A DNA stretch of 37,481 nucleotides from Planctomycetota bacterium (lineage in GTDB: Bacteria > Planctomycetota > Planctomycetia > Pirellulales > Pirellulaceae): contig JAQBZB010000055.1 in assembly GCA_027622275.1 (NCBI GenBank), positions 1-37,481 on the forward strand, in the 5' to 3' direction. Each line of letters starts with the position of its first letter. The stretch's first letter is position 1. The position numbers and the translations under genes are program-made. This document shows positions 491 through 36,591 of the stretch, piece after piece. The notes below the pieces were generated by a model, which did no database searches, had not been told where the DNA came from, and was given only the letters and a program-made list of their open reading frames with translations.

Positions 491-681
491 GTGAAACGGA
501 CGACTTAGTCGACGCACTCACACCCGTTATCGCCGCACTTCGGGCTCTTGAAGTGTCGCACTATGTCGGCGGAAGTGTGGCGAGTTCTTTTCACGGCGCG
601 ACGCGTTCGACCATGGATGTCGATCTTGTCGGCGATTTGACCGAAAATATCTATCTCGCCGGACTTCATCGTTCCCCATAA
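487..681 (+). pseudogene. Truncated AbiEii/MNT-like nucleotidyltransferase
   Basis: Reading from GTG 487, about 64 codons follow. They include YVGGSVASSFHGATRSTMDV then DL, the GG-S...RxTxDxD signature of the nucleotidyltransferase fold (AbiEii-like and related DUF families), where the two aspartates bind metal. The frame ends a few residues after GDLTEN at a TAA at 679-681. By then it lies antisense to the end of the sulfatase gene, whose stop is at 666-668. Complete members are well over 150 residues, so most of the catalytic domain is missing. The junction lies around 645-665. The 4-bp overlap with the upstream gene shows it was once the second gene of a pair. Confidence 0.65.
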
Positions 682-2858
682 ACCGGTGCCTTCCAACCCG
701 GTGGCAGTTTTCCTTGCGGCCTTACGCCGTACGCGTCAGCGGGGATTGGGTGGTCTTCGGCTTTTTGCACGGGCATGTCGTCGGGCAGATGTTTGATCTT
801 GAAGTCTTTGTACTGAATTGTCATTGCGGGGCCGACGTGGACTTGCACGGCTAGGACGCCTTCGAGAGCGCGGCCTTTTTTATCGAAGTCGATTAAGTCG
901 GCCGTGGGATGGCCGTCGATCCAGTGTTGGTGATGATTGCCGCGAACGAGAACGCGGAAGTCGTGCCACTGGCCCGGCTCGAACTCCTTCAAGGGCAGTT
1001 GGCCGACGACCCACGGTTGGCCTGCCGGATCGATGATGACTCTCTCGCCGGTGTGCGACAGGATGCGGCGACCCCGTTCTTCGTACAACATGCCGTTGTA
1101 CTCCGGCGTGTTCGCCACGACGTCGCATTGATAACCGCTGACGATGTCGAGACCAAGATCGGGACGCGAGGTGCCGCGATACTGAATGCCACTGTTGCCG
1201 CCAGGGCTGACTTTCACCTTCGCTTGCAGATCGAAGTTGCGGATCGTCGATCCTGTCCAAGTGAGAAAACGATTCGTCTTCAACGAGCCGTCAGTCACGC
1301 CGGTGATCGCGCCATCCTTGACCGACCAGTATTCGGGATCACCCGTCCAGCCACCCAAGTTCTTGCCATTGAACAGTTGGACGAATCCGTCAGCACCCGG
1401 CGTGACGGTGACGGCGGCTGAAGCTTCGGGATGCGGGACAGTGGACGCAGCGAACTTGCCTGCCAGCGGATCAAGCGGGCCGCCGTATTCGGCGACGCGC
1501 TCGGTCGTTCGCTCACGCATGGCCTGCAGCGTCTCGGCGTGCCGCGGATCGGTGGCGAGATTGACGAGTTCGTCGGGATCGTTCTTCAGGTCGTGCAGGA
1601 ATTCGTGGTTCCCGTGATCGAAGTAACGGACGTATTTGAACTGCTCATTGCGCAGGCCTTCAAACGCGGGGATGCGATTGCGGACGGCGAAGTGTTCGTG
1701 AAAGGTTTCCGTGCGCCAGTCGGCCGGTCTGTCTTCGTCGACGATTTGCTTCAAGCTCCGCCCTTGATATCTCTCAGGCGCCGCGACGCCCGCCCAATCC
1801 AGAAACGTCGCCGGCAAGTCGACGTTGAGCGCGGCGGCATCAGTGACTTTGCCACGCTGCGACTCGGGCACGCGCGGGTCGCTGACGATCAGCGGCACGC
1901 GGAGCGACTCTTCGTAGTGCGACCACTTGCCGGCGAAACCACGATTGCCCATGTAGTAGCCGTTGTCGGCGGAGTAGACGATGATCGTGTTGTCGGCGAG
2001 TCCGGCTTCTTCCAGGGCACTTATGAAACGCCCAATCGCTCCGTCGATGCCGCTGACCATGCGGAAATAGGCCCGCATGTTCGTCTGATACTTCTGGTCC
2101 GTGTTCCACCGCCAGAAAAAACGTTCGCGGTTGATCGTCGTCTTCAGAAAGTCGGGTTGCGCGTCGAAGATCGCCGGATCGTTTAACCGCGGTGGATACA
2201 TTTCGACATCCTCGTACATCCCGTCGACCGCCTGCGGCCACGGGAAGTGACCGATGCCGGGGCGGCGGTCTCCGTCCTCGGCATGACAGGCATTGAACCA
2301 CATGTTCAGAGCGAAGGGCTTGTCCGTCGGCTGGCTTTTCACGAACTCGATCCCGCGATCGACGATCAATTCCGTCTCGTGCCGTAAGCTGCCGTCGGGT
2401 TGTTTCTTGTAGTAAGGGCTTCGCCCGATCGCTTCGAACTCGTCGAAGTGGTCTTCCCGCCGATAGCCCGGCGGCATCTTGGCGTGCCACTTGCCAAAGT
2501 ATCCAGTACGGTAACCGCTGGCTCGCAAGAGGTCGGAATACAAGGTCTCGACCGCATCGGGTCGGGCTTGTTCGGGATTATCCGGCATCCCATAACTGCG
2601 TCCCACCAAACCGGTGAGAATCGTCGTGCGGCTCACCCAGCAGATCGAATGGCTAACGAACGCGTTCTCAAATCGCACGCCCCGCCGGGCCAGCGCGTCG
2701 ATATTCGGCGTTTGAACGATCGGGTTGCCGTAGCAGCCGAGTGTGCTGGTCGTCTGGTCATCGGTGAAGAAAAAGACGATATTAGGCCGTTCATTCGCGA
2801 GCAGGCTGGGAGCGCCCAGCAGGAAAGCGACGAGTAGCAGCGGCAGGCGATTTTTCAT
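666..2858 (-). CDS. Exported sulfatase with C-terminal DUF1080 domain
   Basis: About 730 residues. I chose ATG 2858 because it gives a signal peptide (MKNRLPLLLVAFLLGAPSLLA); the 45 codons upstream are not protein-like. The sulfatase domain comes first, with metal-binding NIVFFFTDDQ, the modified-residue region SICWVSRTTILTG, a GKWH motif, and late DNG...GKWSHYEESLRVPLI. The last ~220 residues are a DUF1080 (3-keto-disaccharide hydrolase-like, laminin-G-type) domain, with FNGKNLGGW, GNSGIQYRG and a conserved SGYQCDV. The core motif reads C-W-V-S-R where sulfatases usually have C-x-P-x-R. Such fusions are typical of planctomycetes and probably act on sulfated polysaccharides in the periplasm. 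Substrate is unknown. The gene is divergent from the fusion gene at 3003. Confidence 0.92.
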   Translation of the reverse strand: MKNRLPLLLVAFLLGAPSLLANERPNIVFFFTDDQTTSTLGCYGNPIVQTPNIDALARRGVRFENAFVSHSICWVSRTTILTGLVGRSYGMPDNPEQARPDAVETLYSDLLRASGYRTGYFGKWHAKMPPGYRREDHFDEFEAIGRSPYYKKQPDGSLRHETELIVDRGIEFVKSQPTDKPFALNMWFNACHAEDGDRRPGIGHFPWPQAVDGMYEDVEMYPPRLNDPAIFDAQPDFLKTTINRERFFWRWNTDQKYQTNMRAYFRMVSGIDGAIGRFISALEEAGLADNTIIVYSADNGYYMGNRGFAGKWSHYEESLRVPLIVSDPRVPESQRGKVTDAAALNVDLPATFLDWAGVAAPERYQGRSLKQIVDEDRPADWRTETFHEHFAVRNRIPAFEGLRNEQFKYVRYFDHGNHEFLHDLKNDPDELVNLATDPRHAETLQAMRERTTERVAEYGGPLDPLAGKFAASTVPHPEASAAVTVTPGADGFVQLFNGKNLGGWTGDPEYWSVKDGAITGVTDGSLKTNRFLTWTGSTIRNFDLQAKVKVSPGGNSGIQYRGTSRPDLGLDIVSGYQCDVVANTPEYNGMLYEERGRRILSHTGERVIIDPAGQPWVVGQLPLKEFEPGQWHDFRVLVRGNHHQHWIDGHPTADLIDFDKKGRALEGVLAVQVHVGPAMTIQYKDFKIKHLPDDMPVQKAEDHPIPADAYGVRPQGKLPPGWKAPVYGER

Positions 2859-3002
2859 GATCGTCTCGTTGAGAACCGAGTTGAAGGCCGGGCCAGGCGG
2901 ATAGAGATTGCGCTGGCAACATTTGACATCATTCAATATCAACTGCCCATCCCACAAGATGTACGCCGGTCGGAAACTCCTCGCTGGGATCACGTGACGA
3001 AA

Positions 3003-5585
3003 ATGATCAACCTATTCTTTTCCTTTCGCGGCCGAGTTCGGCGCGGTGACTTCTGGTACGCCGTGCTCGTTGTCATGTCGGCGTTGGCGGTACTCGACAT
3101 CGCCTGTGAACGAGTCCTCGCGCGATCGATTCCGCTGCTGCTGTGCGTTCCGATCTACTGGTCGCTGCTGGCCTTGTGCATCAAACGGTATCACGACATC
3201 GGTCGAAATGGTTGGTGGCTGCTGCTGTTGGTGATTCCGTTCATCGGGCCCGCGTGGGTCGTCTATTCGCTGGCGTTCCGCAAGGGACAGCAGCACGAGA
3301 ACCGATACGGTTCGCGACCGGGAGTGATCGAACTGGATTATCTGACCGTCGAGCCAAAGCCCGATCAAGCCGAGACCGTCGTTAACGATGTCACCGCGAT
3401 GAATCCGGTCGAAGTGAGCCAAGTGATCCGTCCCACGACGGTCGACGAGATCCAGCGTGCAATCGCTGATTCCTCGGGCCCTGTTTCGATTGGCGGTGGG
3501 CGGTTCAGTATGGGCGGGCAAACAGCCAGCCCGGCTAGTATGCACCTCGACTTGCGAAGCTTTAACCGCATCCTTCAGTTCTCGCCGGAAGAGCGTTGGA
3601 TTCGCGTGCAATCAGGCGCTCGCTGGTGCGACATCCAGCGATTCCTCGATCCGCACGACATGTCGGTCAAGATCATGCAGACCTATGCCAATTTTACGGT
3701 GGGCGGTTCGCTGAGTGTCAACTCGCATGGCCGTTACATCGGACTGGGACCGCTGATTCTGTCGGTGCGGTCGATCAAGCTTGTGCTGGCGGATGGAAGA
3801 CTGGTGACGGCCAGTCCCGAAGAGAACGCAGAGATTTTTTATGGAGCCATCGGCGGATATGGCGGGCTCGGCGTGATCGTTGAAGCGGAACTGGATGTCG
3901 ACGACAATTGCCGCGTGGGTGCGGTGACCAAAGTCATGCCGGCCGGCCGCTACGCGGATTATTTTCGGCGCGAGATTCGCGACGACGACAAATCGCTTTT
4001 TCACAACGGAGACGTTTACCCGCCGCATTACTCGCGCGTCCGGGCGACAACTTGGAAACGCACCGAAAAGCCGGTGACGCAAACCAACCGCTTGATGAGC
4101 CTGCGGTCGGCCTTTCCGTTGGAGCGGTATTTCTATTGGGCGATCTCGGAAACGCCGACTGGCACCTGGCGGCGCGAGCACTTGATTGATCCGGTGTTGT
4201 TCTTTTCGCAGAAGGTCCATTGGCGGAACTACGAAGCAGGTTACGACGTCGCCGAGCTCGAGCCGCGGAGTCGGCAGCGGCGGACTTATGTCTTGCAGGA
4301 GTATTTCGTCCCGGTCGACCGGTTCGAGGATTTTCTCGCGAAAGCCGCGGAGATTCTGCAGCGCTACGGCGTGAACATGATCAACATTTCTATCCGCCAT
4401 GCGGTGGCTGATCCCGGATCGCTGCTGGCATGGGCGCGGGAGGAAGTGTTTGCCTTTGTGATGTATTACAAGCAAGGCGTCGCGGCGCATGATCGCGGTT
4501 GCGTCGCCGTGTGGACTCGCGAGTTGATCGAGGCCGTGATCGAAGTGGGCGGCACGTACTATCTGCCGTATCAGGCACACGCCACGGACGACCAGTTTCA
4601 TCGCGCGTATCCGCGGGCCCGCGAATTGTTTGCACTCAAGGATCGGCTCGACCCCGACTTCCGCTTCCGCAATGTGTTGTGGGACAAGTACTATGCACCA
4701 ACCCGGGAGACGAACATGAACGAAGAACACACCGCCGGCGGCTCCGAATTTCGACATGTGTTTGGTACGACGAAAGGAAGCGACGCTTTCTTTCTCTTTC
4801 TGCAAAACATCTTTCATCTGTTTCCCGAGGACAAGTTTCACGGGCTGATCGTCGATGCTTGCGGGAAGCCGTCGACGGACAAAGCGATTTACGAAACCGT
4901 GCGAGCGGGATTGCCGGGCATCCAGCCGTTCCTCGCCGCCCTGACGTATGCCCTGCCGGCGCTCAAGAAGCAGAAGAAGGAAATGACACGGCAGACGCTC
5001 GAGATTCTCGGCGACCGCAATTCGTTCGACGGTTATCTCGAAATCGGATCGACCGGGCGCTATATCAGCGACTTGCGCAAGCATCTGCGATTCAAGGGGC
5101 CGCTTTACATCACCAACGATATCGCGCCGGGGAATGGACCGGGCGACATCATGGAGCGCGGGCAGTTTGCCAAACTGGGCACGTTCTTCTCGTTGGACTA
5201 TGCACCGCTCGACTCGCACGGCATCGCGGCCGGGAGTCTGGACTTGGTGACCTGCTACATTGGCTTGCATCACTGTCCCGACGAGAAACTCGACGAGTTT
5301 GTCCGCTCGCTGCATCGTGCGCTGCGTCCCGGCGGCGTCTTCATTATCCGCGATCATGATGCGGGTTCGGAAGACATGCAGATCTTCTGCTCGTTGGTTC
5401 ACACGGTGTTCAACCTCGGCCTGATGATGCCGTGGGCCGAGAACGACGCCGAGTTTCGGCACTTCCGATCGGCCGAAGCGTGGAGTGAATACATCGTGCA
5501 GCGCGGCTTCAAAGATCAGGGACCGCGACTCTTGCAGCAGAACGACCCGTCGGACAACACGCTCATGTCCTTCGTCAAGGGATAA
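3003..5585 (+). CDS. DUF805 / FAD-linked oxidase (ALO-type) / methyltransferase fusion
   Basis: About 860 residues in three parts. Numbering here counts from an in-frame GTG at 2994; ATG 3003 starts a typical DUF805 N-terminus. Residues 5-108 are a DUF805 membrane domain with SFRGRVRRGDFW, four hydrophobic segments and RYHDIGRNGWW. Residues 140-310 are an FAD-binding type-4 (PCMH) domain. Residues ~320-570 resemble the D-arabinono-1,4-lactone oxidase C-terminal domain, ending in FRFRNVLWDKYY. Residues ~675-863 are a class I SAM methyltransferase, with YLEIGSTGRY, SLDLVTCYIGLHHCPDEKLD and ALRPGGVFIIRDHD. In SIGGGRFSMGG an Arg (170) replaces the His that covalently binds FAD in ALO enzymes, so FAD is probably non-covalent. 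It likely oxidises and methylates a lipid-soluble or membrane-near substrate; the substrate is unknown. The downstream gene starts 5 bp after the stop. Confidence 0.85.
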   Translation: MINLFFSFRGRVRRGDFWYAVLVVMSALAVLDIACERVLARSIPLLLCVPIYWSLLALCIKRYHDIGRNGWWLLLLVIPFIGPAWVVYSLAFRKGQQHENRYGSRPGVIELDYLTVEPKPDQAETVVNDVTAMNPVEVSQVIRPTTVDEIQRAIADSSGPVSIGGGRFSMGGQTASPASMHLDLRSFNRILQFSPEERWIRVQSGARWCDIQRFLDPHDMSVKIMQTYANFTVGGSLSVNSHGRYIGLGPLILSVRSIKLVLADGRLVTASPEENAEIFYGAIGGYGGLGVIVEAELDVDDNCRVGAVTKVMPAGRYADYFRREIRDDDKSLFHNGDVYPPHYSRVRATTWKRTEKPVTQTNRLMSLRSAFPLERYFYWAISETPTGTWRREHLIDPVLFFSQKVHWRNYEAGYDVAELEPRSRQRRTYVLQEYFVPVDRFEDFLAKAAEILQRYGVNMINISIRHAVADPGSLLAWAREEVFAFVMYYKQGVAAHDRGCVAVWTRELIEAVIEVGGTYYLPYQAHATDDQFHRAYPRARELFALKDRLDPDFRFRNVLWDKYYAPTRETNMNEEHTAGGSEFRHVFGTTKGSDAFFLFLQNIFHLFPEDKFHGLIVDACGKPSTDKAIYETVRAGLPGIQPFLAALTYALPALKKQKKEMTRQTLEILGDRNSFDGYLEIGSTGRYISDLRKHLRFKGPLYITNDIAPGNGPGDIMERGQFAKLGTFFSLDYAPLDSHGIAAGSLDLVTCYIGLHHCPDEKLDEFVRSLHRALRPGGVFIIRDHDAGSEDMQIFCSLVHTVFNLGLMMPWAENDAEFRHFRSAEAWSEYIVQRGFKDQGPRLLQQNDPSDNTLMSFVKG
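4705..4718 (+). promoter_or_regulatory. Possible internal ribosome binding site before methyltransferase part
   Basis: GGGAGA at 4705-4710 is followed after 5 nt by an in-frame ATG at 4716. This sits at the linker between the oxidase and methyltransferase domains of the fusion gene. The spacing fits a functional Shine-Dalgarno, so a separate ~290-residue methyltransferase might also be made. It could equally be chance or a relic of the gene fusion. Confidence 0.3.
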
Positions 5586-5590
5586 ACGCG

Positions 5591-6664
5591 ATGCAACTTC
5601 GAATTCTGGCGGTTGTCTGCATGTGCTGTGCCCTGCTGGCGATCGGCTTTGATATTCAGTCGTCGCAGACCGAAGTGAAGCGACGAGTCGCCATCAAACC
5701 GATCGCGACGATCACGCCCGCAGCGCAACGCCGAGCCGAAGAGCAAACTTTCTTGACGTTTCCAGAGTGGTACTTGGTCTATAGCCCCGACGAATACGCG
5801 AACCTCGTGCAAGATCGCCCGCCGAGCGACTTCCCGTACCTCGAACATATCGCCCAGTTCTGGCAGGGATACGACGTCATGTATACAGCGACGAAGGATG
5901 AGTATCCCTTCAATGGCGGCTACCACATGATGGTGATGGTTATCGGCGCGAGTACGACGATCGAGTACGGTATGAAGTGGGCTTACGAACAGGTGATCGG
6001 ACGAATCACCGAGACCACCTGCCGCGGCGAGATGACGGCCGAGGACAAGCTGGCCGCCGATATCGCACGCGAGTACGCCGACTTCCTCGATGGCGATGCC
6101 TGGTTCAACTTCGATTATGTTGGCGCGATCAATCGGCTGTGGAGCGATACCGGTTTCTGGGGGCCGCACCCGCTGCGAAAATGGGAACGCAAGTACGCAC
6201 TGACCACCGAGTACGCGATCAAGGTCGTCTATGCGCAGGCATTGAAGCAGGGTGCCGAGTCCGCTTACGGCACGGTGGAGTTCGTTACGGCGACACTGCT
6301 GGATGGGGTGCCGCCGGAGGACATGCTTGACGAGTTCCCAGACCTCAAGATCATCGAGCAGTTTCCCGACGGAACCGTGCTCGTCGAACTGCCTCGCTAT
6401 CAACCGTTCACTGCCTACGCCAAGGGTCTCGCGGCGCGAGGGATCGGCTTCATCGAAATCGCCGGCAACCGGAACGCAATCCTCGTGAGTGCGGTCGTTC
6501 CCGACGACTTCGAGATGGATGTTCCCGTTTTGATGACACAACCGATCATCACTCAACCTGGCCGCCAGCGAATCGTCTTCAGCGTTCCCGTCGCGCAACT
6601 TGGGGCGACGATCGGCAATCTCCGGGCATCGACGACTAACTTAGAGCACATTTACGACTATTGA
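5591..6664 (+). CDS. Exported/membrane-anchored protein of unknown function, operon partner of the fusion oxidase
   Basis: 357 residues from ATG 5591, 5 bp after the stop of the fusion gene, so almost certainly co-transcribed. Residues 1-20 form a hydrophobic signal or anchor segment. The rest is soluble and rich in aromatic and acidic residues, with strong motifs such as FLTFPEWYLVYSPDEYA (about 54-70), GGYHMMVMVIGASTTIEYGMK (about 107-127) and LWSDTGFWGPHPLRKWERKY. I cannot assign a family or a catalytic residue. The tryptophan/tyrosine-rich blocks look like a conserved fold rather than a random exported protein. Its fixed position suggests it handles the substrate or product of the oxidase-methyltransferase on the outer face of the membrane (inference). 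Confidence 0.8.
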   Translation: MQLRILAVVCMCCALLAIGFDIQSSQTEVKRRVAIKPIATITPAAQRRAEEQTFLTFPEWYLVYSPDEYANLVQDRPPSDFPYLEHIAQFWQGYDVMYTATKDEYPFNGGYHMMVMVIGASTTIEYGMKWAYEQVIGRITETTCRGEMTAEDKLAADIAREYADFLDGDAWFNFDYVGAINRLWSDTGFWGPHPLRKWERKYALTTEYAIKVVYAQALKQGAESAYGTVEFVTATLLDGVPPEDMLDEFPDLKIIEQFPDGTVLVELPRYQPFTAYAKGLAARGIGFIEIAGNRNAILVSAVVPDDFEMDVPVLMTQPIITQPGRQRIVFSVPVAQLGATIGNLRASTTNLEHIYDY

Positions 6665-6716
6665 CGCCCACGGCCGCCCCCCACCAATCCACAATCTTTA
6701 TTCGTACAGTTCCGAC

Positions 6717-16399: not shown

Positions 16400-17182
16400 T
16401 CAGTCGCTATTTAGTTCAGTTATGGAACATGCCACCCGGAAACCATAATCGTGATAGCGTCGAGTCGACGGATCGTAGTGTCGTTCACCCGACCGACACA
16501 TCATACCGATATTGGTCCAGCCTCCGCCGCGAAGAACTCGAGCCGTGACACCGTACAATTCTCCGTCCATGGGACCGGGTGGATCATTGTCCGGAGAACT
16601 CTGATAGTAGCCCTTCTGAAACCAGTCGGCACACCACTCGTTGACGTTGCCATGCATGTCGCAAAGCCCAAAAGCATTGGGCTGGTACGAGCCAACGGTG
16701 GCTGTCCGTCGAGGGCTCGGGCCACGGGATTTTCCGCCGTACGGATGCTGCCCATCGAAATTGGCGTCGGCAGCAGATGCCGAATTGCCAAAATGGAACA
16801 CGGTCGCAGTTCCCGCGCGACACGAATATTCCCATTCAGCCTCCGTCGGCAAACGATAGACCCGCCCTGCCCGCCTCTCTTCCGCTGCTTCAGAAAGTTT
16901 GCCACAGAATTCGACCGCATCGTCCCAGCAGACCGAATCCACGGGAAAGCGGCCAGTCTCCTGTCCCTCGACACTTTGAAACTCACTCGGATTGCGTTCC
17001 AGGACCAGTTGGAACTCAGCCTGGGTCACCTCGTAGATTCCGAGATAGAAAGGACGCGTGAACTTCACGCAGTGTTGCGGCTGCTCAGGAGGCGTACTCC
17101 CCTTTTCTGAGGCAGGTACTCCCATTATGAACTCGCCCGCCGGAATCCGAGCCAGTGGCATACCAATGGAGTTGATGATCAT
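16400..17182 (-). CDS. SUMF1/EgtB/PvdO-domain protein (formylglycine-generating-enzyme-like)
   Basis: 260 residues. ATG 17182 overlaps the TGA of the upstream DUF1501 gene (TGATG), so it is translationally coupled. Family landmarks run end to end: ARIPAGEFIMG, GIYEVTQAEF, FPVDSVCWDDAVEFC, YRLPTEAEWEYSCRAGT, FGLCDMHGNVNEWCADWF, VLRGGGWTN and YGFRVA. The C-terminal region has a single Cys (MMCRSGERH) where true formylglycine-generating enzymes have a two-Cys active site. It is therefore probably not the sulfatase-activating oxidase. No signal peptide is seen. It may be a C-type-lectin-fold domain working with the DUF1501 protein; this is inference. Confidence 0.9.
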   Translation of the reverse strand: MIINSIGMPLARIPAGEFIMGVPASEKGSTPPEQPQHCVKFTRPFYLGIYEVTQAEFQLVLERNPSEFQSVEGQETGRFPVDSVCWDDAVEFCGKLSEAAEERRAGRVYRLPTEAEWEYSCRAGTATVFHFGNSASAADANFDGQHPYGGKSRGPSPRRTATVGSYQPNAFGLCDMHGNVNEWCADWFQKGYYQSSPDNDPPGPMDGELYGVTARVLRGGGWTNIGMMCRSGERHYDPSTRRYHDYGFRVACSITELNSD

Positions 17183-18555
17183 CAGATCAACTCCGAGATC
17201 GGAGCGCGATGGTCCAGCAGATACTGTGGGCGGCCAGACAAGTCATTGAACAGAGTTCGTTCGAGATCGATGCCGAGGGCGTGATAGAGCGTGGCAAACA
17301 CTTCCTGGAACCGAATCGGGCGATCCTTGGCTTCTTCACCGAGTCGGTCTGTGGAGCCAATCACCTGGCCCATTCGAAGCCCGCCGCCTGCCAGCAGCGC
17401 ACTCATCACATTAGGCCAATGGTCGCGTCCACCATTCACATTGATTTTTGGGCTTCGCCCAAACTCGCCCCACACGATCACTGTGACATCTCGATCCAGC
17501 CCTCTTTCATAGAGATCCTCGATCAGCGCGGCGACTCCCTGGTCCAGCAACGGCAGTGTCAATTTGGCCTCTCGAAAGTTTTCCATGTGCCAATCGTACT
17601 TTCCGAAATTCATCGTGACGCATCGCGCACCGGCTTCCACAAGTCGGCGGGCTATGAGAAAGTGTTCCAGATCTCCCGAAGCAGGATACTCATCCTTACT
17701 GTTGGTAAATAGTTTTGGGCGTCCCTTGCCATACCTCGCACGAACTCGCGGATCTTCACGACTGACATCCAGAGCTTCGAGCAATCGACTGGAGGTCAAT
17801 ATCCCCAGTGCCTGGCTGGTGAACTCGTCAAGCCCCGTTGCTGCGCCTGTTGCGTCGATCTCTCGACGGAAGTTGTCGAGGCTTCGGAGCAGCAACTTTC
17901 TGTTCCCGAGCCGATCCGCATCGATTCCCTGCAAGACCATGTTCTGCATGCCCGCACCGACAGGTCGAAACGGTGCATGGGCCACACCCAGAAAACCTGG
18001 AGAACCAGGATCAGCCCACGTTTCCAACTGCATCTTCGGCGTCAGGCTGACAAACGGTGGAACGCCTGGCTGAGCGGCACCGCCGACCTTTGATAATATC
18101 GAACCCAGCGCAGGCCACCCACCAGCAGGCTGCGCTCCCGACCCTGCCTGAACATTACGCGGCCGACCTGTTAAACAGTGAAACGCAGCGTGATCGTGAT
18201 ACGAATCGACCACTGAGCGAATGATGGTCGTCTTATTCATCACAGCCGCTAAACGCGGCATTAACTCGCAAATCTGCAAACCCGGAATCGTGGTCGCGAT
18301 CTGCTCAAACTCGCCGCGGACTTCCTTCGGCGCATCAGGCTTCAGATCAAACGTATCGAGATGGGGTGGGCCTCCAGCTAAAAAGACCATGATGATGGAC
18401 TTGTGGGGGTGTGACGTTCTCGCTCCGGCTTCAAGCCTCAGCAGATCAGGCAGCGACAGGCCGCCCAAGGCCAGTCCCCCGATCTGAAGGAATTGACGGC
18501 GTGAAACGCCGTCACAGAACTTCTGATGATCATTTCCGCAGATTGTTAGAGTCAT
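17182..18555 (-). CDS. DUF1501 family exported protein
   Basis: 457 residues, full length. The N-terminus has a Tat-like signal, SRRQFLQIGGLALGGLSLPD. It is followed by IIMVFLAGGPPHLDTFDLKP, KEVRGEFEQI, TTIIRSVVDSYHDHAAFHCLTG, and a late VIVWGEFGRSPKIN...GRDHWPN block. The fold is related to sulfatase/alkaline-phosphatase-type hydrolases, but the biochemical role is unknown. In planctomycetes DUF1501 genes usually pair with cytochrome-containing DUF1549/DUF1553 genes. Here the nearest such gene is the truncated one at 19392. The stop overlaps the start of the SUMF1-domain gene. Confidence 0.93.
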   Translation of the reverse strand: MTLTICGNDHQKFCDGVSRRQFLQIGGLALGGLSLPDLLRLEAGARTSHPHKSIIMVFLAGGPPHLDTFDLKPDAPKEVRGEFEQIATTIPGLQICELMPRLAAVMNKTTIIRSVVDSYHDHAAFHCLTGRPRNVQAGSGAQPAGGWPALGSILSKVGGAAQPGVPPFVSLTPKMQLETWADPGSPGFLGVAHAPFRPVGAGMQNMVLQGIDADRLGNRKLLLRSLDNFRREIDATGAATGLDEFTSQALGILTSSRLLEALDVSREDPRVRARYGKGRPKLFTNSKDEYPASGDLEHFLIARRLVEAGARCVTMNFGKYDWHMENFREAKLTLPLLDQGVAALIEDLYERGLDRDVTVIVWGEFGRSPKINVNGGRDHWPNVMSALLAGGGLRMGQVIGSTDRLGEEAKDRPIRFQEVFATLYHALGIDLERTLFNDLSGRPQYLLDHRAPISELI

Positions 18556-19391: not shown

Positions 19392-20507
19392 TTATTGGCG
19401 TGATTGCAGGTAAGCGAGGAGATCTGCCACATCCTGCAGCGCCATATCATGCAACTGACCGACTGGCATGAGTGAGACCTTCTGTGGAACCAACTCAACA
19501 ACTTGTTTCGTCGACAGGCGAGTCTGTTTCGACTGGCTGTCCTTCAGCACGACGGATTCAGCCGTCCTCTCGACGAGCAGGCCGGAGTGAAGCATGCCCT
19601 CAGTGGTAATCACCAAAAAGGGAACGTATTCCGGTTCGATTTTTTCCGACGGACTCAGCAGGCTTGTCAGCAACGTGGACGCGTCCCGCTTGCGTCCGAT
19701 TTTAGTGAGATCGGGACCGAACGGCTTTCCTCGCTCACCAATCTGATGGCAGTTCCTGCATTGCAGCCGCGAGTCATCGAAAAACAGCTGCTCGCCTCGT
19801 GACGCATTTCCTTCGACTGCCAAAACCTGCGACGACTCGAGCTCGACTCGTTTTCTGCGGTTCTGTTCGGGAACAAAGTCCTCAAACAGATCTCTGATCT
19901 GAGGGTTGGATAATTCAGCTGCCTGCGTGATGATTCTCTCTCGCAGGTCGGAAGTGAACTGGTTTTCGTGCATGCCGCCTGCAAGAACCAATCCACCGCT
20001 GAGCGTCTGCAGAAGTCGGTCGATCAAGGCAGGCTGGTCTCCCCGGCCTGCGACAAGATCCTGCAGGGCAGCAATCTGGTCGGCGCGACTCTCGGCCAGA
20101 TCAACGTCTTCGGATGACTCCGTGGAACGTTGTTGCGAAAGCCCCTGAATCCAGTCACGCATTAAACGCAGGCCCTGCTCATCAACGACGTAAGAACCGA
20201 TGTGTGGCATCCGTCCGCGCCCGAGTTTCGCCATCCGGTAATACAGCACTGAGCGATAAGGATCGCCGGGGGCAACCAGCTGAGCATGGTGGATACCAAA
20301 ATCACCCTGAGTGAGTTTGCTGTCCAGCAGCCCGGTTTCCTCAAGCCCAAGTTCGACCTGCAGCCGGAATTGAGCCGTGCCGGCGCCTCCAAGGCCATGG
20401 CAATGCGCGCAGTTCACGTCGAGGTAGGATCGTGCTCGCTGTTGTCCCTGTATCAGCAGATCGGCTGCCGCTTGGCGATGGAGGTTGCCAAGCAGCTGCC
20501 GCCGGAT
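19392..20507 (-). pseudogene. 5'-truncated planctomycete cytochrome (two CxxCH haem sites)
   Basis: Reads in frame from about 20507 (an in-frame TGA lies at 20508-20510) to a stop at 19392. It begins with RARSYLDVNCAHCHG, which is normally an internal motif, so the first half of the gene is missing. APGDPYRSVLYYRMAKLGRG follows. The second haem domain is RGEQLFFDDSRLQCRNCHQI with GERGKPFGPDLTKIG, the C-terminal planctomycete haem-binding domain, ending in LQDVADLLAYLQ. The sequence upstream of ~20500 belongs to the integrase instead. GTG 20415-20417 could start a ~340-residue product, but it would lack a signal peptide and could not be exported. It probably once paired with the DUF1501 gene. 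Confidence 0.75.
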
Positions 20508-21947
20508 TCATCGTCCGACCACGTGTTTCGAGTTGGGATCGAAGTTCGTGATCTTGCCAAAGATCCCTACGCCAGACATCACGTGCGGCCGATCGGCGAG
20601 CATGTTGACGACTTCGCGCGGCACCTGACCGACAAGAACGACAGTGACGACCACGTCCAGCAAACTTGCGGCCGCGTTCGGAAGATCATCGACGGTTGCA
20701 AGTTCGCGACTTGGCAAGACGTCGAAGCTTCGACGCTGCAGCGCTGGCTTGCCGATCAACGGGCCGCGGATGCGTTTGGTATCCAGACCAGCAACTACTA
20801 TTTGCGAGACTTCAAATCCTTCGCCACGTGGATGGTTCACGATCGACGCACGAATCAGAACCCGTGCGAGTATCTCGCCGCGCTGAATGCGGACGTTGAA
20901 GACAGCCGAGAACGGCGAGCATTGCCAACGTGGGAGTTCGCCTGGCTGATCGACACGACCCGCAAGAGCAAGAAGACGTTTCGCGGCCTGATGGGATTGG
21001 ACCGAACCGCCCTGTATCTGGCGGCTGCGTATTCCGGGCTGAGAGCGGGCGAGCTGAAATCGTTGACGCCCGAATCGGTCGACCTGGATGGCGACCCGCC
21101 AACACTGACCGTCAAGGCCGCCTACAGCAAGCGCCGCAGGCTGGACGTCCAGCCCATCGGTGCCGACGTCGCCGCCGAGCTGCGGACCTGGCTGGACGGT
21201 CACCAGCGAACCGGCAAGCTCTGGCCCCGCACGTGGTATCTCGTCGCCGCCATGATGCTGCGCGGGGACTTGGAAGCCGCCCGCGCGGCTTGGATCGACG
21301 ACGCCGCGAACGATCACGAACGGCGAGCCCGCGAACAATCCGATACGCTCAAGTACGAAGACGCCGCCGGCCGCGTCTTCGACTTTCACGCGCTCCGCCA
21401 TCAGTACATAAGCCAATTGGCAGCCGCCGGCGTGCATCCTAAGACCGCTCAGACACTCGCCCGCCATTCGACCATCAAGCTGACGATGGATCGCTACACG
21501 CATCTTCAGGCGTCCGATTTGACGGGTGCCCTCGACAAGCTCCCGAGCGTACCGACGGCGAGCAAGCCGCGCGACAGCGAACCGCTCGCCGCCACCGGCA
21601 CCGATGGCCGCGACGGCCGGCTAGTTGCACGAAAGTTGCACGATTCTCCCCCGGTCGAAGGTAGGAATCAGGGGCGTGAGAGTCACTTAGCGGCATCCCC
21701 TGGCAACTCGGATGAATCGGCAGTCTCGGCCGAAAACAAAACAAAGCCTTTGGAAAACCAAGGGCTTCGCGTGATCGGCAGCGTTGAAGCCGAGAGGCGC
21801 CGGCCGGATTCGAACCGGCGAATAACGGATTTGCAATCCGCCCCCTTAAACCACTTGGGCACGGCGCCAGATGAGGTCAAATTAGGGGATCAAGGCGGTA
21901 GGGTCAAGAGGAATGGGCAAGGTGTTGGGTTCGCTGAATTATCGTGA
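20478..21947 (+). CDS. Tyrosine recombinase/integrase, N-terminally truncated, next to tRNA-Cys
   Basis: The homologous part begins near 20562 (DPYARHHVRPIGEHVDDF), the core-binding domain. The arm-type N-terminal domain of ~70-80 residues is absent, replaced by sequence antisense to the cytochrome fragment. The catalytic domain is complete: Arg in AAYSGLRAGELKSLTPES, Lys in KAAYSKRRRLDVQP, HALRHQYISQ, LARHST, and the Tyr nucleophile in MDRYTHL. After residue ~430 the frame runs on through linker and the antisense of tRNA-Cys (giving RRRPDSNRRITDLQSAPL), a well-known artefact peptide, to a stop at 21945-21947. The natural C-terminus is therefore unclear. It probably once drove an island into the tRNA 3' end. 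ATG 20478 is a formal start only. Confidence 0.7.
   Translation: MEVAKQLPPDSSSDHVFRVGIEVRDLAKDPYARHHVRPIGEHVDDFARHLTDKNDSDDHVQQTCGRVRKIIDGCKFATWQDVEASTLQRWLADQRAADAFGIQTSNYYLRDFKSFATWMVHDRRTNQNPCEYLAALNADVEDSRERRALPTWEFAWLIDTTRKSKKTFRGLMGLDRTALYLAAAYSGLRAGELKSLTPESVDLDGDPPTLTVKAAYSKRRRLDVQPIGADVAAELRTWLDGHQRTGKLWPRTWYLVAAMMLRGDLEAARAAWIDDAANDHERRAREQSDTLKYEDAAGRVFDFHALRHQYISQLAAAGVHPKTAQTLARHSTIKLTMDRYTHLQASDLTGALDKLPSVPTASKPRDSEPLAATGTDGRDGRLVARKLHDSPPVEGRNQGRESHLAASPGNSDESAVSAENKTKPLENQGLRVIGSVEAERRRPDSNRRITDLQSAPLNHLGTAPDEVKLGDQGGRVKRNGQGVGFAELS
21795..21868 (-). tRNA. tRNA-Cys (GCA)
   Basis: 74 nt. The acceptor stem GGCGCCG pairs with CGGCGCC, with discriminator T at 21795. The D-arm uses CCC/GGG pairing. 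The anticodon arm GCGGA-TTGCAAA-TCCGT gives anticodon GCA, as in bacterial tRNA-Cys. The T-arm is GCCGG-TTCGAAT-CCGGC. CCA is not encoded. U73 and GCA are the identity elements of cysteine tRNA. The gene is transcribed leftwards, so its 3' end faces the integrase, the classic attachment-site layout. Confidence 0.95.
21879..21907 (-). promoter_or_regulatory. Probable tRNA-Cys promoter
   Basis: On the minus strand, TTGACC (21907-21902) and TAATTT (21884-21879) are separated by 17 nt. The -10 box lies 10 nt before the tRNA 5' end. Box spacing is ideal; the -35 box matches 5 of 6 and the -10 box is weak. Confidence 0.45.
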
Positions 21948-29977: not shown

Positions 29978-30997
<1,020 letters not shown>

Positions 30998-35487: not shown

Positions 35488-36591
35488 GGTCTCCAATCTC
35501 AATCGCAATTGGGAGCGGTGTTTTTCTCGAAGAAAACCGCATCGGGAGTTCGAAAGCCGAGGCACTCGCGTGGGCGTCCGTTTAGTAGTTTTTCCACGCG
35601 GCGCACCTCGTCATGAGAGATGTCGCGAAAGTCGGTCCCCTTGCGAAAATACTGACGGATTAGACCATTGGTATTCTCATTCGTACCGCGCTGATACGGA
35701 CAGCCCGGATCTGCAAAGTATAGCGTCATGCCGAGATGCTTTTCCAGCCGCCGGCAGCGCGCGAACTCCGTGCCATTGTCGAACGTGATGGAGCGGCGGC
35801 GCTGCTCGTCTAACTCGCGCAACCGTTCCTTGATTTTGTGGTGCACGTGGTCTGCCTCCTTGCATCGAATCTTGACGACGATCGTATAGCGTGACTTGCG
35901 GTCCACCAACGTCGCTAGGCCACCCGTGCCTGCGGGACCAAGCACCGTGTCACCTTCCCAGTCTCCCAACCGCAATCGTTGCTCGATGACTTCGGGCCGT
36001 TGGTCGATGGGCGCGCCGATTCCATCAGGTTTTTTGCGGCGATAGGGCCGTTTTCCACGCCGCCGCAGAAACGACTTCCAAGGCTCGCGGTATTCGTCAT
36101 TTTCGATCCAGGTGTAGATCGTTTGCGCCGAGACGTGGCGGTCAGGGCAGTCGGCGTGTTCCTGTTTCAGGCGTCCTGCGATCTGCGCCGGCGCCCACTC
36201 GTGCGGCAGGCCACGGCGGACGCTTTCGTTAAGCTTGGGATCATCCATTTTGCGAGTCAGCGGGCGTTCCACTCGCCGCCGAGTGGCCTTCTGCTGCGCT
36301 TGCCCGGCGTAGTAATTGTTCCCCGTCTGATTTCGTCGCAACTCGCGACTGATCGTCGCCGGACTGCGACTCAACGCCTTCGCAATTTCTTTTTGATCCG
36401 CTCCTTGAAGCTTCAAGTGCGCTAGGTGATCACGCTCTTCCATTGTAAGATGATTTGCCATCGCTGGGACTCCATTCCCAAGGGAAAGTTTGCAAGACTT
36501 CTTCCCATTGGAAACTCCCAGCGATGTTTTCTCCTACACCACTTCCGAGGCACGATTTTCGATACCTCGATTGCATTTGAGTTTGGAGACC
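35488..36591 (-). mobile_element. IS30-family insertion sequence, 1104 bp
   Basis: Terminal inverted repeats of ~27 bp: 35488-35514 and 36565-36591 agree at 21 of 27 positions, both starting GGTCTCCAA. A GC dinucleotide flanks both ends (35486-35487 and 36592-36593), consistent with the 2-3 bp target duplications of this family. It contains one transposase gene on the minus strand, whose stop lies inside the left repeat. Confidence 0.85.
35499..36461 (-). CDS. IS30-family transposase (DDE)
   Basis: 320 residues. The N-terminal helix-turn-helix is MTMEERDHL-like, with DQKEIAKALSRSPATISREL. The DDE catalytic core is visible: Asp171 in RLGDWEGDTVLG, Asp228 in SITFDNGTEF and Glu262 in GTNENTNGLIRQYFRKG. 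SRYTIVVKI and LLNGRPRECLGFRTPDAVFF are also typical. It appears intact and probably active, cutting both element ends and joining them to a target. The start at ATG 36461 leaves a 104-bp leader to the right repeat. Confidence 0.96.
   Translation of the reverse strand: MANHLTMEERDHLAHLKLQGADQKEIAKALSRSPATISRELRRNQTGNNYYAGQAQQKATRRRVERPLTRKMDDPKLNESVRRGLPHEWAPAQIAGRLKQEHADCPDRHVSAQTIYTWIENDEYREPWKSFLRRRGKRPYRRKKPDGIGAPIDQRPEVIEQRLRLGDWEGDTVLGPAGTGGLATLVDRKSRYTIVVKIRCKEADHVHHKIKERLRELDEQRRRSITFDNGTEFARCRRLEKHLGMTLYFADPGCPYQRGTNENTNGLIRQYFRKGTDFRDISHDEVRRVEKLLNGRPRECLGFRTPDAVFFEKNTAPNCD

Follow-up and report, generated by a model that had tools for sequence, protein, structure and literature searches.

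A stretch of 37,481 nucleotides from a Planctomycetota bacterium of the Pirellulaceae (contig JAQBZB010000055.1 of assembly GCA_027622275.1; hereafter the window) carries at 3003-5585 on the forward strand a gene whose single product joins a DUF805 membrane domain, a flavin adenine dinucleotide (FAD) oxidoreductase domain (FADox), and an S-adenosylmethionine (SAM)-dependent methyltransferase domain. The same architecture recurs in other phyla, and a conserved partner gene lies directly downstream. Our preferred, still tentative, interpretation is that this gene is one version of an enzyme module, so far undescribed, that is spread across phyla and in which a cytoplasmic, membrane-held FADox and a methyltransferase would act on one substrate together with the partner protein. 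What is new here would be a variant of known enzyme kinds combined with an undescribed conserved partner.

The open reading frame runs without interruption from an ATG at 3003 to a stop codon ending at 5585 and encodes 860 amino acids; an alternative in-frame GTG at 2994 would give a version of 863 amino acids. Three domains in one frame without a frameshift had been proposed in the original prediction, and each is recognized above its curated Pfam cut-off. DUF805 (PF05656) spans residues 5-103 (3015-3311) with 73.8 bits versus a cut-off of 25.7. FADox, which has a VAO/PCMH fold, covers residues 126-565 (3378-4697) and contains FAD_binding_4 at residues 140-270 (74 bits versus 26.4). The class I SAM-methyltransferase domain occupies residues 657-837 (4971-5513, the Methyltransf_23 range) and matches Methyltransf_11 with 29.1 bits versus 21.2. 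A helical segment in the structural model (residues 580-656, 4740-4970) could be aligned across the methyltransferase parts of relatives, including the stand-alone copy in L059. Third-position GC content hardly differs between the three parts of the gene (0.75, 0.71, and 0.75). The AlphaFold2 (AF2) model of the whole protein has a mean pLDDT of 80.4 and a pTM of 0.78, and is good over most of both catalytic parts.

Genome contigs scanned for the fusion protein yielded 10 loci. Most of the protein is present in 5 of them, and in the other 5 the match does not extend beyond the DUF805 part (residues 5-106 at most). The fuller matches come from Bacteroidetes SZAS-92 (L033, 65% identity to the window protein), an Aureispira metagenome-assembled genome (L032, 54%, with a frameshift near its end), a member of the Leptospirales (L034, 50%), Gammaproteobacteria 39-13 (L035, 53%, lacking DUF805), and a planctomycete (L036, 85%, lacking the methyltransferase; the identical gene in a genome of the same genus, G002, was counted once with it). 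Searches based on the partner added L058 and L060 with three domains, L061 without DUF805, and L062 and L063, which have other N-terminal hydrophobic segments in place of a Pfam DUF805. They also found L111, a FADox-methyltransferase protein without DUF805 whose methyltransferase is degenerate and whose partner lies at the contig end. The gene directly adjoining the L111 fusion (2587-3936 of that locus, reverse strand) encodes another protein of the FAD-linked oxidase type, 449 amino acids long.

All three domains stand in one frame in L032, L033, L034, L058, and L060, five other genomes in three phyla. The three Pfam cut-offs were passed in every one of these except L060, where Methyltransf_11 reached 20.7 bits versus 21.2. 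Since the architecture recurs in other phyla, we regard it as a natural fusion beyond chance, as had been claimed. A split frame in relatives had been named in advance as the finding that would speak against this, and one was found: in L059, DUF805-FADox (578 amino acids) and the methyltransferase (281 amino acids) are encoded separately. These are, however, adjacent genes, an arrangement that fits a natural joint better than an assembly error. Seven of the 11 methyltransferase-linked members carry DUF805, two have another hydrophobic N terminus (L062 and L063), and L035 and L061 lack DUF805, so that the proposed membrane tethering holds for only a part of the family. Judged by titles and the starts of abstracts, no description of the three-domain architecture was found in the open-licence PMC literature.

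The original prediction overlooked the partner gene at 5591-6664 (forward strand, 357 amino acids plus stop), whose ATG lies 5 bases past the stop of the fusion gene. The partner adjoins the FADox-methyltransferase gene in all five loci found without using it as a query (the window and L032-L035), and is divergently oriented in L035. No convincing Pfam match was obtained for any of 14 members of the partner family (best E 0.025). Its AF2 model (mean pLDDT 85.2, pTM 0.80) consists of an N-terminal hydrophobic helix, a helical middle, and two C-terminal beta-alpha-beta units, at about 229-293 and 295-356, each of which matches ACT-/ferredoxin-like domains by VIA-align. The best fold match, 2f1f_A (Z 6.1, 59 aligned residues, root-mean-square deviation [rmsd] 2.5), lies in the range of common arrangements and may reflect no more than one of these. 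No PDB chain matched at E<=0.001 in a fold comparison that effectively covers the C-terminal units, and no PDB sequence matched at E<=1. The frequency of the partner was read from samples of larger groups, seed genomes among them. It occurs in 3 of 392 genomes of the window's phylum; for the other seed loci, the counts are 1 of 395 (L032, phylum), 1 of 149 (L033, class), 2 of 198 (L034, phylum), and, for L035, 20 of 398 at the level of its phylum and 5 of 14 at that of its order.

We aligned 38 FADox sequences, 27 without and 11 with a linked methyltransferase; L111, a later find, is outside this set. The covalent-FAD His in the GARHSMGG-type motif of relatives aligns with Phe168 (3504-3506) of the window protein, within GGGRFSMGG (residues 164-172, 3492-3518), so the His of a GxGHS-like motif expected of covalent-FAD VAO/PCMH proteins is replaced by Phe. 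The earlier claim that no His is available for covalent FAD thus stands, but the residue it named as the attachment site, Arg170, does not. This Arg is residue 167 when counted from the ATG at 3003 (170 from the GTG at 2994), and it aligns with the Arg that precedes the attachment His in GARHSMGG or similar motifs, which rules it out. An alignment with cytokinin oxidase agrees on Phe168, while one with alditol oxidase is off by one and would place R167 opposite the His. In the attachment column, the 27 sequences without a linked methyltransferase have His in 25 cases and Phe in 2 (L036 and L047), whereas the 11 linked ones have Phe in 9, Lys in 1, and Arg in 1, and never His. Put differently, His occupies this column in 25 of 25 compared FADox lying outside the methyltransferase groups. 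By eye, the motif of L111 (GGGHYSMGG) also lacks His in the attachment column; here and in L033 (GGGHFSMGG) a His stands one residue ahead of it. Glu433 (4299-4301), Arg465 (4395-4397), and Tyr523 (4569-4571) are invariant in all 38 sequences.

Both the FAD_binding_4 score and the fold place FADox in the VAO/PCMH superfamily. With VIA-align, residues 123-565 of the AF2 model matched DprE1 (decaprenylphosphoryl-beta-D-ribose oxidase, 4ff6_A; Z 37.5, rmsd 3.0, 396 aligned, 18% identity), an ancestral L-galactonolactone dehydrogenase (8qmy_C; Z 36.7, rmsd 2.5, 409 aligned), and alditol oxidase, AldO (8ot8_C; Z 34.7, rmsd 2.8, 383 aligned). The "ALO-type" label originally given to the domain is therefore apt for the fold, but Pfam ALO (PF04030) has no match to the window protein at E<=1; among 23 aligned relatives, 14 match ALO at E<=0.01, several of them under the Pfam cut-off. 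AldO carries the covalent-FAD His, unlike the window protein with its Phe168. L-galactono-1,4-lactone dehydrogenase (GLDH) resembles FADox in fold and gives the best profile match within the FAD domain. The likeness to DprE1 extends along the whole of FADox, and to our knowledge DprE1 also lacks the covalent-FAD His; we know of no methyltransferase or DUF805 in DprE1. An identity as DprE1 orthologue was rejected, as the window protein scores 86.8 bits versus an equivalog cut-off of 500 for NCBIfam NF053785. DprE1 works with DprE2, a second protein, according to passages of PMC6015584, and FADox here also has a partner. We do not see this partner as a DprE2-type reductase, because none of its 14 members has a convincing Pfam match. 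The window's own genome holds a second FADox-type gene (E 1e-7), by eye a distant glycolate-oxidase-like protein.

The SAM loop of the window methyltransferase reads EIGSTGR, which is shorter than the usual E/DxGxGxG (GxGxG) loop. In an alignment of 11 methyltransferase sequences (A7, without L111), E-I-G, the Arg of the SAM loop, IGLHH, and DH are invariant, which suggests that the domain has kept a function. A profile search of the PDB with this part returned no more than weak, partial matches (best E 5e-6). The Pfam family of cyclopropane synthases (PF02353) had no match to the fusion protein at E<=1, a search in which the HMMER filters remove the majority of matches with E above about 0.1.

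A FADox with a partner also occurs without the methyltransferase. Of the 20 partner-bearing genomes in the phylum of L035, we examined 17 Pseudomonadota stretches (L093-L109), each of which holds a partner by the way it was found; the seed, G1322 (match at a contig end), and G1119 (a 58-residue match) were left out. FADox lies within the same 9-12 kb as the partner in 16 of the 17, the exception being L108. A DUF4383-like small membrane protein is present in 16 of 17 and a further small protein in 11 of 17; the seeds for these small proteins came from L049, L094, L098, and L099, which match by construction. The methyltransferase profile matched in none of the 17 stretches. The four genes lie together as a single megaplasmid run in Ruegeria pomeroyi and in Ruegeria sp. 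TM1040, with annotations there of FAD-binding oxidoreductase and hypothetical protein. These runs and those of other Pseudomonadota resemble the window in having homologous FADox and partner genes close together, and differ from it in having a Tat-like or other hydrophobic start and the covalent-FAD His, with no methyltransferase found. No report combining DUF4383 with an FAD-binding oxidoreductase was found in the open-licence PMC literature.

An alpha/beta family hydrolase adjoins the module in L094, L098, and L109 as well as in the spirochaete loci L034 and L060, with 32-36% identity between the two groups over the full length. Its presence beside the module in both supports a shared gene set. 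Just ahead of the Ruegeria pomeroyi FADox gene, a frame of 79 amino acids (4652-4891 of L049, forward strand) matches this hydrolase (E 1e-7) and is perhaps a remnant. Sorted by eye, the N termini of the 27 FADox without a methyltransferase comprise 15 with a Tat-like RR-hydrophobic start, 9 with another hydrophobic start, 1 with DUF805 (L036), and 2 with neither (L070 and L071); a Tat-like start was seen in none of the 11 methyltransferase-linked FADox. Other arrangements were noted around individual FADox genes. In L070 (5357-7661, reverse strand), a FADox relative overlaps an upstream gene that by eye resembles another kind of methyltransferase, near polyketide-synthase-like genes. In L067 (465-5149), a tandem repeat of two genes, one of them prepilin-peptidase-like by eye, stands just upstream of FADox, and in L071 a DUF6962 membrane protein gene (4552-5292, forward strand) overlaps the FADox gene start by a few bases.

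In the FADox tree, the main methyltransferase clade has 11 rows and a support of 100/100. It contains L036 and L047, which for this reason look like methyltransferase losses. L062 and L063 fall outside it and are joined by a long branch, and methyltransferase linkage may therefore have more than one origin. The FADox of the window and of its sister species group with L033 of the Bacteroidota (97/100) and not with the planctomycete loci L058 and L059, a grouping that favors transfer from one phylum to another. The contig of the sister species matches the window over 3003-4974 and again from 6716, on the xseA side; the intervening 4975-6715, comprising the methyltransferase part and the partner, has no match in that contig, and a search of the sister's genome found no partner. 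Because the three-domain form occurs in other phyla, the state of the sister is best read as a deletion that would have removed methyltransferase and partner together. A viral or phage origin was rejected: phage records gave no match to the fusion protein at E 1e-5, and viral contigs gave no confirmed relative when scanned with the fusion or the partner alignment, all in scans that start from short conserved peptides. A defence system was rejected as well, the only PADLOC match being one of 10.5 bits (E 0.046).

In the interpretation we favor, the core of the module would be the DprE1/GLDH-like flavoenzyme together with the partner protein. In the fused form, the flavoenzyme would stay in the cytoplasm with noncovalent FAD, be held at the membrane by DUF805, and carry its own SAM-methyltransferase. 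FADox would dehydrogenate a membrane-associated small molecule, with Glu433, Arg465, and Tyr523 presumably near the flavin, and the methyltransferase would act on the same compound at the cytoplasmic face; the catalytic parts are expected to face the cytoplasm because SAM is there. The partner may work with FADox at the membrane, in a complex or in handling the substrate. A functional link between oxidoreductase and methyltransferase appears likely from the comparative evidence, since the fusion is kept across phyla, the two are adjacent genes in L059, and the sister species lacks methyltransferase and partner alike. A broader and less probable proposal, which we offer as a possibility, is that two compartment forms exist on the FADox-partner core. 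One would be exported, with a Tat-like or other hydrophobic start and the covalent-FAD His, and encoded beside the DUF4383-like membrane protein; the other would be cytoplasmic, without this His, often DUF805-tethered, and fused to the SAM-methyltransferase. The fused form would have spread horizontally among Planctomycetota, Bacteroidota, Spirochaetota, and Gammaproteobacteria and would make a novel oxidized, methylated membrane compound, the partner being a new family needed by the flavoenzyme.

Several observations weigh against the favored interpretation. Many FADox lack a methyltransferase. The pairing of FADox and partner is not absolute, since none of 7 planctomycete genomes with FADox relatives has the partner and G1111 (locus L108) contains the partner while FADox is missing from it at E<=1e-30; FADox on a Legionella lytica plasmid (L047), with neither partner nor methyltransferase nearby, also counts against strict pairing. 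The methyltransferase domain may be inactive in some members, given the short EIGSTGR loop and the lack of any recognizable SAM loop in L111. DUF805 is modeled as three helices (14-39, 42-63, and 70-91) with poor confidence (10-residue blocks between 41 and 69 over residues 1-100), and such a model would not fix the side of the catalytic domains. The N-terminal export classes were assigned by eye, and the counts of His and export starts are not independent events, since the 38 rows share ancestry and come from two kinds of search. On the tree, the methyltransferase label changes 4 times (twice at the unlabelled L036 and L047) versus a shuffle mean of 9.7, and the tree tool warned of long branches meeting and of uneven composition.

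An alternative would reverse the chemistry, with the methyltransferase first modifying an unsaturated lipid or isoprenoid of the membrane and the flavoenzyme afterwards reducing the methylene product. Passages of PMC5660069 describe such a pair: BfaA, an FAD-binding oxidoreductase, and BfaB, a SAM-methyltransferase, make 10-methylstearate via a methylene intermediate. The original proposal, oxidation followed by methylation, is thus one possible order; BfaB and BfaA work in the opposite one. The pairing of enzyme classes at the membrane is the same, and an engineered BfaA-B fusion raised conversion (PMC7791843), a precedent for why a FADox-methyltransferase fusion pays. We nevertheless think a Bfa-like system unlikely. 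BfaB candidates were sought with a cfa cyclopropane synthase query (PMC5660069), whereas the methyltransferase here belongs by Pfam to another family, with its Methyltransf_11 match and no cyclopropane synthase at E<=1. FADox is likened to BfaA by enzyme class alone, the natural bfa genes overlap but are separate, and the BfaA/BfaB passages mention neither such a partner nor DUF805. Less probable still is an ordinary sugar-lactone or alditol oxidase, of the vitamin-C or alditol-oxidase type, with incidental extra domains. The folds of GLDH and AldO and the ALO matches of relatives would fit it, but the fusion protein reaches 60.9 bits versus 396.8 for the sugar 1,4-lactone oxidase model, and HWXK, given in passages of PMC11505616 as the conserved C-terminal motif of aldonolactone oxidoreductases, is absent from the FADox region in all 38 sequences (the sole HWNK, at residue 836 of L063, lies inside the methyltransferase part). 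An aldonolactone oxidoreductase identity was rejected on this motif; the fused methyltransferase further sets the window protein apart from these enzymes and GLDH.

It is also conceivable, though we hold it as improbable as the Bfa-like chemistry, that the flavoenzyme is the working part and the methyltransferase-like domain an accessory for binding or regulation, or one that has lost its activity, fused only through a shared operon. The short SAM loop in A7, the unrecognizable loop of L111, and the absence of a methyltransferase from L047, the sister species, and the 17 Pseudomonadota stretches all agree with this, but the motifs invariant in 11 of 11 methyltransferases do not. A fusion by chance or by assembly has a negligible probability and was regarded as refuted: the two adjacent genes of L059 are all that favors it, while the three domains share one frame in six genomes, counting that of the window.

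The module would bring the unrelated annotations DUF805, FAD-binding oxidoreductase, and methyltransferase, along with a hypothetical protein, together into one testable system in distant phyla, and would place DUF805, whose function is not known, in a specific biochemical setting. The association of the covalent-FAD His, an export-type start, and an absent methyltransferase makes a simple, testable prediction. The form without a methyltransferase is present in a marine laboratory bacterium, Ruegeria pomeroyi DSS-3, in which the genes could be knocked out.

Elsewhere in the window, the divergent neighbor of the fusion gene (666-2993, reverse strand) encodes a protein that joins a sulfatase domain to a 3-keto-disaccharide hydrolase domain. 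In the contig of the sister species, the 6 kb that precede the homologous gene have no match to the window. At 16400-18555 (reverse strand), a gene of the FGE-sulfatase type and a DUF1501 gene adjoin each other. A phage-integrase-family gene (20286-21947, forward strand) ends over a tRNA-Cys gene (21794-21868, reverse strand) in a configuration suggestive of the boundary of an integrated element. Farther along are an IS110-type transposase gene (30017-30979, forward strand) and an HTH_38/rve transposase-like gene (35499-36461, reverse strand).

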